Assembly (NCBI RefSeq): GCF_000378225.1
Contig: NZ_KB905143.1
Coordinates: 1-64,000 of the forward strand
Length of the DNA stretch: 64,000 nucleotides
Source of the DNA: Methylophilus methylotrophus DSM 46235 = ATCC 53528
GTDB lineage: Bacteria > Pseudomonadota > Gammaproteobacteria > Burkholderiales > Methylophilaceae
Direction of reading: 5' to 3'
The notes under the pieces are model-generated. The model was not told where the DNA came from, made no database searches, and saw nothing but the letters and a program-made list of their open reading frames with translations. Positions 12,472-15,381 of the stretch are shown piece by piece. A program made the position numbers and the translations under genes. Position 1 is the stretch's first letter, and every line of letters starts with the position of its first letter.

Positions 12472-13062
12472 TTATAACGCACCCTTGGTAGATGGCATCA
12501 ATCCTGCCATACGTGGATCTGGGGTCGCCGCCATACGCAGCGCACGCCCGAAGGCTTTGAAGATGGTTTCTGCCTGATGGTGAGCATTATGTCCCTTGAG
12601 GTTATCAATATGCAACGTGACTAATGCATGATTGACGAAACCCTGAAAGAATTCATGAATCAGGTCCACATCAAACTCACCAATCATGGCACGCGTGAAG
12701 GTGCAATCAAATTCCAGGCCGGGACGACCGGACAAATCCAGCGCCACCCGGCTCAATGCTTCATCAAGCGGGACATAGCTATGACCATAGCGCGTCAAGC
12801 CTTTTTTGTCGCCTAATGCCTTGAAAAAAGCCTGACCCAACGTAATACCGATATCTTCCACCGTGTGGTGTCCATCAATATGCAAGTCGCCCTTGGCATG
12901 CACTTTCAAATCGATCATGCCGTGACGGGCAATTTGGTCCAGCATATGATCCAGAAAACCCAAACCGCTGTGCAACTCGGATTGGCCAGTGCCATCGAGG
13001 TTAATCGAGACAGTGATTTGTGTTTCTAACGTATTACGCGTGACTTCAGCTTGACGTGACAT
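12472..13062 (-). CDS. hisB: Imidazoleglycerol-phosphate dehydratase
   Basis: The Mn-dependent dehydratase of histidine synthesis, monofunctional (about 196 residues, no phosphatase domain). Metal-ligand motifs typical of the family are seen: [30 protein letters not shown] and [16 protein letters not shown] chose the internal ATG at 13062 ([15 protein letters not shown]) because family members begin with this segment; the frame opens earlier with a GTG at 13083, and neither start has a clear ribosome binding site. It is the first gene of the hisBHAFIE block, downstream of the hps terminator. Confidence 0.95.
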
Positions 13063-13154
13063 ATGAGATGGAAGGGTATTCACAGAGAATTAGCAATAGT
13101 TTGTCCATTTTACAGCAACTCTTGCCGGACTGGCAAAAAGCCGTCATGAAAAAC

Positions 13155-13217: not shown

Positions 13218-14099
13218 TTAGTTAGCACCTTCAGTTGCTGGCGCAGCTTCTTCAGCAGGCGCAGCTTCAGCAGGTGCAGCCTCTTCAGCCGCTGGTGCTT
13301 CTGCGGCAGGCGCAGCTTCAGCAGGTGCAGCTTCTTCAGCTGCTGGTGCCTCGGCAGCAGGAGCAGCTTCTTCAGATTTTTTACCCAACAGTGAAAATAC
13401 CAATACTGCAGCAACCGCAGCGATGATCCATGGCAGCAACTTGTTGCCACCTTTAGCAGCAGCGCCAGAACCGTGAGCAATTTTGGTGATTTCGTTTGCA
13501 GCCGCCGCTGGATCAGCAGCACCGTAGATCGCTGCACCAGCAACCACGATATCAGCACCTGCATCTACCACTTGCTTGGTTGTTGCCGCTTTAACACCGC
13601 CAGCAACAGATACTTTAGCGCCTGTTTTCAAACCGGATACCAGACCCAGGTCAGCAAAAGGTGTTTGACCAGCTGCTTGTTGGTCCAAACCAGTGTGAAC
13701 ACCGATAATGTGTGCACCCAGTTTTACCACTTCCAGGGTACGGGCTTTTTTGTCTTTCACGTTGATCAGGTCAATTTGCGCTTCTTTGCCATATTTATTG
13801 GCAGCGTCGATCACACCTTTGATCGTACCGATATCAGCTGTACCCAACACGGTACAAATGTCAGCACCTGCTTTGTAGAATGGCTCAGCTTCGTAGAAGC
13901 CAGCATCCATGGTTTTCAGGTCAACCAAAATCTTGTTGTTAGGGAATTTGGAACGCAATGCTTTCAACAGTTCGATACCGTTGTGCTTGATACAAGGTGT
14001 ACCAATTTCCAAGATATCTACGTGTGGCGCTACTTTAGCTGCCAAAGCGATCGTTGCGTCAAAATCCAATGAATCCAATGCCATCTGGGTTTGTGCCAT
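13218..14099 (-). CDS. hps: 3-hexulose-6-phosphate synthase with C-terminal membrane segment and repeat tail
   Basis: Residues 1-208 are a complete HPS/KGPDC-type (beta/alpha)8 enzyme, which condenses formaldehyde with ribulose 5-phosphate in the ribulose monophosphate cycle. The motifs DILEIGTPCIKHNG, ILVDLKTMDAGFYEAE, GADICTVLG, GVHTGLDQQA and VAGGVKAAT are typical. The protein then continues for about 85 residues: a Gly-rich linker, a predicted membrane helix at 221-238 (LLPWIIAAVAAVLVFSLLG), KK, and an acidic Ala/Glu/Pro tail with a 17-residue unit repeated exactly. Usual HPS proteins end near 210 residues. GGAGGAAG precedes the ATG. The gene sits between hisC and hisB with its own promoter and terminator. 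Confidence 0.93.
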   Translation of the reverse strand: MAQTQMALDSLDFDATIALAAKVAPHVDILEIGTPCIKHNGIELLKALRSKFPNNKILVDLKTMDAGFYEAEPFYKAGADICTVLGTADIGTIKGVIDAANKYGKEAQIDLINVKDKKARTLEVVKLGAHIIGVHTGLDQQAAGQTPFADLGLVSGLKTGAKVSVAGGVKAATTKQVVDAGADIVVAGAAIYGAADPAAAANEITKIAHGSGAAAKGGNKLLPWIIAAVAAVLVFSLLGKKSEEAAPAAEAPAAEEAAPAEAAPAAEAPAAEEAAPAEAAPAEEAAPATEGAN

Positions 14100-14198: not shown

Positions 14199-14228
14199 AT
14201 CATAACCGCATTTTGAAAAAAATGACAA
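14199..14228 (-). promoter_or_regulatory. Sigma-70-type promoter of hps
   Basis: On the minus strand TTGTCA (14223-14228) and TATGAT (14199-14204) are separated by 18 bp, each one mismatch from consensus. It lies 100 nt upstream of the hps ATG and downstream of the hisC stop, giving hps an independent promoter with a leader of roughly 90 nt. Confidence 0.6.
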
Positions 14229-14316: not shown

Positions 14317-15381
14317 TCAAGCCTGAATTACTGACCGCAATGCCTGCATTAAGGCCTGGTGCTGGGCTTCATGACCTATTGTTATGCGCAAAAACTCAGC
14401 AATCCGGGCCGGTTTTTTAAAATGTCGCACGATCACCGCCTGTTCGCGCAAGCTTGTTGCCAATTGCTCACCAGAATAATTCTGATGCCGTGCAAAGATA
14501 AAATTAGCACCCGAAGGCAACACCTCAAAGCCTAATGATTGCAAACCAAGCACCAACTGGTCGCGCGCGGCGATGACTTGCTGGCGTGTTTGCTGAAAAT
14601 AGGCTTCATCTTGCAGGGCAGCCACGGCACCAGCCTCCGCAAAACGGTCAATCGGGTACGAATTAAAGCTATCCTTAACGCGAATCAACGCTTCAATCAG
14701 ACCTGCATCACCAACGGCATAGCCAACCCGCAATCCAGCCAAGGAGCGGGACTTGGAGTAGGTGTGGGTTACCAGCAAATTAGGGTATTGATTAACCAGC
14801 GATACCGCAGACTCAGTGCCAAAATCAACATAGGCTTCATCAATGACCACCACTGACTGGGTATTGGCTTTTAAAAGTCGTTCGATTTCACTCAAGGCCA
14901 GGGGAATGCCCGTGGGCGCATTGGGGTTAGGAAAGATAATGCCGCCATTGGGCCGCAAATAATCATCCACAGCGATTTCGAACTGCTCATTCAATGCAAC
15001 CGTTTCAAAAGTGATTCCATACAGCCCGCAATATACTGGATAAAAACTATAGGTAATATCGGGAAACAGTAAGGGCTGGTCGTGTTTAAGCAAGGCCTGA
15101 AACACATGTGCGAGCACTTCGTCTGAACCATTACCGACAAATACCTGATTGGAGTTTAAACCGTGATAGTCGGCAATGGCTGCTTTCAAGCGGCTGGAAT
15201 CCGGGTCAGGATATAAACGGAGGCTGTCGGCAGCCTCGGCTTGCAAGGCTGCAATCACCTTAGGACTGGGTCCATAAGGATTTTCATTGGTATTCAGCTT
15301 GACCAGATTTTGTAATTTTGGCTGCTCGCCTGGCACATAAGGCGTCAAGTGATGAACAATGTCGCTCCAGTATTGGCTCAT
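14317..15381 (-). CDS. hisC: Histidinol-phosphate aminotransferase
   Basis: A PLP-dependent fold-type I aminotransferase of histidine synthesis, 354 residues. The motifs are [16 protein letters not shown] at the N-terminus, [28 protein letters not shown] with the PLP-contacting Asp and Tyr, and [18 protein letters not shown] containing the Schiff-base Lys. Family members end with the conserved R-x-T/S-I-G, here [10 protein letters not shown]. The hisD stop is 10 nt upstream, so hisG-D-C is a tight unit. The next gene in the same direction is hps, not hisB. Confidence 0.96.

Follow-up and report, generated by a model that had tools for sequence, protein, structure and literature searches.

3-Hexulose-6-phosphate synthase (HPS) is usually regarded as soluble, in synthetic methylotrophy as well, and an ordinary soluble HPS ends near residue 210. 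The window, a 64,000-nucleotide stretch of contig NZ_KB905143.1 of Methylophilus methylotrophus DSM 46235 = ATCC 53528, contains an HPS gene that lies among histidine genes and encodes 293 residues, which raises the question of what the C-terminal addition is and whether it brings a normally soluble enzyme to the membrane. In the ORF listing, the gene runs on the minus strand from 14099 to 13218 (293 codons plus stop), and its product divides into four parts:

13476..14099, minus strand: HPS catalytic barrel, residues 1-208 (TIGR03128, Pfam HUMPS, invariant residues, AlphaFold2)
13440..13475, minus strand: flexible Gly/Ser/Ala/Lys linker, residues 209-220 (pLDDT below 50 at 215-219; dN/dS 0.13 among 15 close relatives)
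13386..13439, minus strand: predicted single membrane-spanning helix, residues 221-238, beginning at an LPW motif (hydrophobicity, model, dN/dS 0.000)
13221..13385, minus strand: acidic Ala/Glu/Pro tail, residues 239-293, predicted to be disordered and putatively periplasmic (pLDDT below 50 at 240-293)

The barrel scores 247.7 bits over residues 5-207 against a cut-off of 200 for the TIGR03128 profile, which places the protein in the HPS family. The Pfam OMPdecase/HUMPS profile matches the same protein, and its closest solved relative is 3ajx, a 3-hexulose-6-phosphate synthase. Residues D9, E31, D60, K62, D65 and H135, which we take to be the active-site residues of the HPS family, are invariant in 24 of 24 aligned sequences, and AlphaFold2, supplied with 24 sequences, predicts most of the barrel with confidence. 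The window HPS therefore has the whole barrel in common with soluble HPS (TIGR03128, HxlA; PDB 3ajx), to which it adds the linker, the helix and the acidic tail. HPS-HPI fusions (NF041755) likewise consist of an HPS barrel with a C-terminal addition, but there the addition is a second enzyme, whereas here it is a predicted anchor. Specifically, the window HPS reaches 296.6 bits against the cut-off of 500 for the fusion profile and covers it only to position 216 of 391, and the bifunctional enzyme was rejected. Other reading frames in the same DNA, some of them open, were likewise set aside, since the family match and the selection signal both sit in the HPS frame. The four-part architecture of the original prediction is thus borne out by profiles, hydropathy and AlphaFold2.

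The helix has the hydrophobicity of a membrane segment. Its Kyte-Doolittle average over the 18-mer 221-238 is 2.63, and the same-window cytochrome b, TatC, TatA, MlaD, MlaE and ABC permease, which span 2.40-2.90, bracket this value; this scale separates the two kinds of protein less cleanly because the soluble HisD reaches 1.95. A second scale, which sums insertion values across 19 residues, was applied with 23 other window proteins, named by eye, for comparison; on it the HPS helix scores -0.65, slightly weaker than those membrane neighbours (-1.07 to -3.13). Single-span TatB is poorer still (+2.38), soluble proteins score at least +5.2, and the HPS barrel alone gives +8.2. AlphaFold2 predicts a helix at 222-238 with a pLDDT of about 70, followed by a tail below 50, and the hydrophobic moment of the helix is 0.08, i.e., it is uniformly hydrophobic. 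The helix thus has the length (about 18 residues or more) and the hydrophobicity that a single-span membrane protein requires. In a strict tail-anchored protein the membrane segment falls in roughly the final 30 residues; this class was rejected, since 55 residues follow the helix here and 32-111 in relatives.

The 55-residue tail is 87% A/E/P/D with a net charge of -11. The N-terminus of the barrel carries no export signal as judged by eye and the sugar-phosphate substrate, ribulose 5-phosphate, is cytoplasmic, so that a spanning helix would place the tail outside. An arrangement with the catalytic domain inside and the acidic tail in the periplasm is therefore plausible. Across 50 helix-tail records the median charge is +2 for the linker and -10 for the tail, which accords with this orientation; the first six tail residues have a median charge of 0, and the charges beside the helix do not decide the topology. 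A search of the window genome with the tail found no second enzyme with the same tail and gave just two further matches, both weak (E 0.002 and 0.05) and both secretory by eye. One of the two is a tiny lipoprotein-like frame (L218, contig C4 near 44500; MTRSALLAALLALALTACGEKPAEEAPAAEAPAAEAAPAEEAK), nearly all of which is an HPS-like acidic tail after a signal sequence; the other is an ammonium-transporter-like protein (L219, contig C3 near 299400) whose signal-peptide-like start leads into an acidic A/E/P stretch resembling the HPS tail.

With the window HPS as query, matches at E 1e-40 were found in 141 of 150 sampled Methylophilaceae genomes, and HPS frames were read in 119 of these (169 records, 165 distinct after double fetches were dropped, two being contig-edge fragments). 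C-termini were assigned by a hydropathy threshold of 1.6 (helix-tail) or by motif (amphipathic), and the class 'other' stayed empty. An extended copy occurs in 104 of the 119 genomes. Each of the 101 distinct histidine-cluster copies carries an extension, which is a helix and tail in 50 and a short amphipathic ending in 51. Four extended copies lie outside the histidine cluster, all amphipathic (genera g9, g12 twice and g19); the g9 copy adjoins a formate-dehydrogenase-like gene, named by eye. On the other hand, none of the 60 unextended copies read (many further unextended ones were left out of this count) has a histidine gene in the fetched flank, and at the level of sequence the extension is restricted to one set of paralogues. 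Per genome, 50 have a helix-tail copy, 54 amphipathic copies only, and 15 no anchored copy seen; ten of the 15 come from genera g14 and g16 and have one HPS match each, unextended, and the rest include incomplete sets (G026 has a further HPS match outside the frames read). A separate scan of 39 loci in named genomes gave the same result, with all 24 loci that have a flanking histidine gene extended, the g9 case (L058) again being an amphipathic copy without histidine neighbours. The helix form occurs, for example, in Methylophilus sp. 42 and Methylotenera MAGs, and the amphipathic form in Methylobacillus flagellatus L1B. Conservation of the extension across the family rules out a chance or one-genome artefact. 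The acidic tail is thus present in many other Methylophilaceae HPS proteins, on helices that score as membrane segments, so that neither of the sequence findings that would have contradicted the original prediction turned up, and the claimed membrane tethering, as a prediction from sequence comparison, is well supported.

In G021 (L073) the histidine cluster holds two HPS genes in tandem, of which one has a membrane helix and the other an amphipathic ending. Six genomes of g6, g12 and g19 have three HPS matches (L155/L172, L174, L175, L176, L178 and L188): two neighbouring genes, one canonical and the other a diverged, unextended copy, and, elsewhere in the genome, a third copy that is also diverged. 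The third copy is amphipathic in the five read, two of which lie in the histidine cluster.

The two endings are alternative predicted anchors on the same kind of barrel, and a Gly-rich linker precedes both. A PW or PY pair occurs in 50 of 50 helix-type extensions, at the helix start in the sequences inspected; their 18-mer hydropathy is 1.91-2.86, and their tails of 32-111 residues are negative in all 50 (net charge -3 to -21). The amphipathic ending (GGLFGWLKKLFS type; e.g., SGGLFGWLKKLFS) terminates the protein and follows the consensus GG-L/V-FGW-L/I/V-KKLFS. Among 17 listed variants of this class, which was preset by motif, the hydrophobic moment is 0.59-0.75 and the charge +1 or +2, compared with a mean moment of 0.26 and a maximum of 0.60 for barrel 11-mers. 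In the M. flagellatus model the short ending is predicted as a helix with a pLDDT below 50. The short endings are thus C-terminal, amphipathic and positively charged, which is the form of MinD/FtsA-type membrane-targeting sequences, and are predicted to bind lipid; the likeness is one of form, read from the sequence. MinD membrane binding is switched by ATP, and we know of no counterpart of this switch in HPS. Because the HPS enzyme family is dimeric, two weak amphipathic helices could act together. The C-terminal amphipathic helix of MinD is weak alone and works when at least two copies are present, according to PMC6803595. The amphipathic form also occurs on an HPS lineage just 61-64% identical to the window barrel (L196-L200), which suggests that the amphipathic ending is the older anchor. 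Accepting this, the amphipathic anchor probably preceded the membrane-spanning helix, and the anchored isoform was probably first peripheral and later integral.

Selection acts strongly on the predicted helix. In 15 close relatives its dN/dS is 0.000 at a pS of 0.381, i.e., there is no amino-acid change while synonymous sites differ by 38%; the barrel, linker and tail have values of 0.010, 0.130 and 0.113, respectively. For all 21 genes of the genus, the values are 0.147 (helix), 0.040 (barrel), 0.258 (linker) and 0.175 (tail), and for all 50 helix-type genes 0.200, 0.050, 0.361 and 0.334 in the same order, the last set being rough because synonymous sites are near saturation. In both wider sets the helix is under weaker constraint than the barrel. 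The predicted helix is conserved letter by letter in close relatives and as a hydrophobic helix across genera, and the tail is conserved more in composition than in sequence. A barrel tree built by a quick method, with 69 of 143 inner branches open, groups copies with and without an anchor together by genus (starred clades: g2 with g17; g9). This mixing suggests homogenisation between paralogues, apparently by gene conversion that spares the C-terminus, and it blurs the number of origins of the helix form: six changes are counted on the tree, and a single one is possible.

The gene order at the locus is conserved. By eye, the gene order around the window HPS is hisG-D-C-[HPS]-B-H-A-F-I-E, with the following features next to the gene:

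14317..15381, minus strand: hisC, upstream neighbour, named by eye from sequence
14199..14228, minus strand: promoter-like site 5' of HPS, weak evidence (TTGTCA-18-TATGAT, 10/12 matches; 2 found against 1.5 by chance)
13183-13156, minus strand: terminator-like hairpin and T run 3' of the HPS stop (12-pair stem; 2 sites against 1.9 expected in shuffles)
12472..13083, minus strand: hisB, downstream neighbour, named by eye from sequence

Judged by similarity to the window genes, the order hisC-HPS-hisB recurs in 97 of 103 histidine-cluster records, and in the other six one neighbour was not found. By a loose test, 91 of 103 histidine-cluster records have a hairpin and T run behind the gene, but so do 41 of 62 unextended ones; a terminator as a mark of the anchored gene was rejected, this test being unspecific. 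Since a terminator-like hairpin often lies 3' of the anchored gene, HPS may be its own transcription unit there. The second HPS of the window genome is 82% identical over residues 1-211, stops after 210 residues without extension, and is located some 120 bases upstream of the one gene that passes the hpi-family cut-off. That hpi frame encodes 179 aa with no room for an extension, and a tethered HPI was not found in the window genome. The same two kinds of place are on record: Beck et al. 2014 (PMC4109929) report that the histidine cluster holds one HPS gene and that a second, linked to HPI and transaldolase, belongs to the H4MPT cluster. The histidine-cluster copy is therefore already published, and the available part of that paper, which treats the two-copy HPS, mentions no C-terminal extension, anchor or membrane link. 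Searches of open-access literature yielded neither localisation data for an anchored HPS nor an earlier mention of one.

We propose that two paralogues share the HPS reaction, one unextended and presumably soluble (at the hpi locus in the window genome) and one encoded in the histidine cluster and very probably anchored to the membrane, presumably at the cytoplasmic side of the inner one. The short amphipathic helix of many genera would be embedded in the surface of the bilayer; for Methylophilus and some lineages related to it, a membrane-spanning helix, with the N-terminus inside, would send the acidic A/E/P tail into the periplasm. That the extension is a tolerated low-complexity addition without function accords with tail and linker changing faster than the barrel and with the variable tail length, but the strong purifying selection on the helix in close relatives and the extension of every histidine-cluster copy read largely refute this reading for the helix and make it highly improbable as a whole. 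The C-terminal helices might alternatively be protein-protein assembly segments that gather HPS into a cytosolic cluster, as an encapsulation-peptide-like signal would, rather than anchors. Short amphipathic helices on Gly-rich linkers do also serve as cargo peptides, and the model confidence, about 70 for the long helix and below 50 for the short one, leaves room for such a role; yet the same locus alternatively bears a long helix that scores as transmembrane and is uniformly hydrophobic, and is thus unlikely to be soluble, so that we consider assembly segments improbable.

What membrane anchoring would be for is a separate matter. In the proposed mechanism, formaldehyde would be fixed where it crosses from periplasmic methanol dehydrogenases, close to a putative membrane partner, and we slightly favour a formaldehyde-related purpose for the membrane-anchored isoform. 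Of 64 genomes searched, 58 have a match to the PQQ methanol/ethanol dehydrogenase family, which makes a periplasmic source of formaldehyde likely in nearly all. These 58 include 8 of 9 genomes from g14 and g16, genera in which the ten genomes read show unextended HPS only, and the anchored form is thus dispensable. A free-diffusion estimate with assumed inputs (radius 0.3 µm, 20 mmol g⁻¹ h⁻¹, 2.5 ml g⁻¹) gives a membrane-to-centre formaldehyde difference of at most about 0.1 µM and reaction-diffusion lengths of 0.7-12 µm, larger than the cell radius. With so flat a profile, membrane placement alone gives no concentration or kinetic benefit, and clustering, direct contact with a partner or another reason would be needed; on this free-diffusion basis, the case for capture of formaldehyde as it enters the cell is weak and the purpose unproven. 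HPS could instead be membrane-bound for a reason to which formaldehyde entry is irrelevant, either as part of a membrane-surface complex or as a separately regulated isoform (e.g., for stress or the oxidative cycle). Besides the absent gradient, the hairpins that may set the gene apart as its own transcription unit, though they are shared by many unextended copies, speak for such a role, as does the lack of a link between anchor type and MxaI. MxaI matches occur in 17 of the 30 helix-tail genomes, in 17 of the 41 with amphipathic copies, in 0 of 8 without an anchor seen and in 1 of 80 unclassified. However, no candidate partner gene adjoins the anchored HPS, its neighbours being histidine enzymes, and we regard this role as possible but the less probable one. 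A bolder version of the formaldehyde-related purpose is a trans-membrane relay, in which anchored HPS would gather beneath methanol dehydrogenase. In species of the Methylophilus type its acidic tail, on the periplasmic side, would directly bind the dehydrogenase, which is basic in character, so that formaldehyde would be handed over at one spot from its periplasmic producer to its cytoplasmic consumer. As 13 of 30 helix-tail genomes have no MxaI match, the relay would there need another dehydrogenase, and we think it unlikely. The tail form does not need MxaI, and the idea that the helix form exists because its tail binds MxaI is unsupported (17/30 against 17/41).

What is new here is a variant of a known enzyme with a predicted anchor, and it is no new kind of system. 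Pyruvate oxidase PoxB of E. coli, which feeds the respiratory chain, is likewise a metabolic enzyme with a C-terminal helix, membrane-binding in PoxB and predicted to be so in HPS, although the enzyme is a different one. A probable locus-bound membrane isoform with two alternative predicted anchors, present across much of the family, points to a role of enzyme location in handling a toxic intermediate that arises outside the cytoplasm, and a normally soluble reaction may run partly on the cell membrane in many methanol-using Methylophilaceae. Engineered Mdh-Hps-Phi complexes, which place HPS at the formaldehyde source, as proposed here, are reported to raise product formation (PMC7241084); those complexes are artificial and use an NAD-linked dehydrogenase, whereas any source enzyme in the window system would be periplasmic. 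The barrel with and without its anchor is a simple testable design for natural and engineered methanol users.

Among the groups surveyed, only Methylophilaceae show the predicted anchor. A class-wide sample of 369 genomes gave HPS matches at E 1e-30 in 7, one of them the window genome. For the two other orders, which were sampled by way of G309 and G398, HPS at E 1e-40 occurs in 48 of 63 and 92 of 121 genomes, respectively. Neither anchor was seen in 68 HPS frames (67 loci) from these orders: 53 stop close to the end of the barrel, within a few residues, which leaves no room for helix and tail, and the other 15 are long, read by eye like HPS-HPI fusions and were judged for the amphipathic motif only, which occurs in 0 of 68; three loci whose matches are weak or partial (L207, L213, L215) do not enter this set. 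The order of G398 presumably comprises methanotrophs. A particulate HPS has reportedly been described in Methylococcus capsulatus; since the frames read from that order show no anchor, such a particulate enzyme, if real, needs another cause. Additionally, a contig labelled as a Truepera MAG (L068) carries an HPS 75% identical to the window HPS, and its label or the contig may be mixed.
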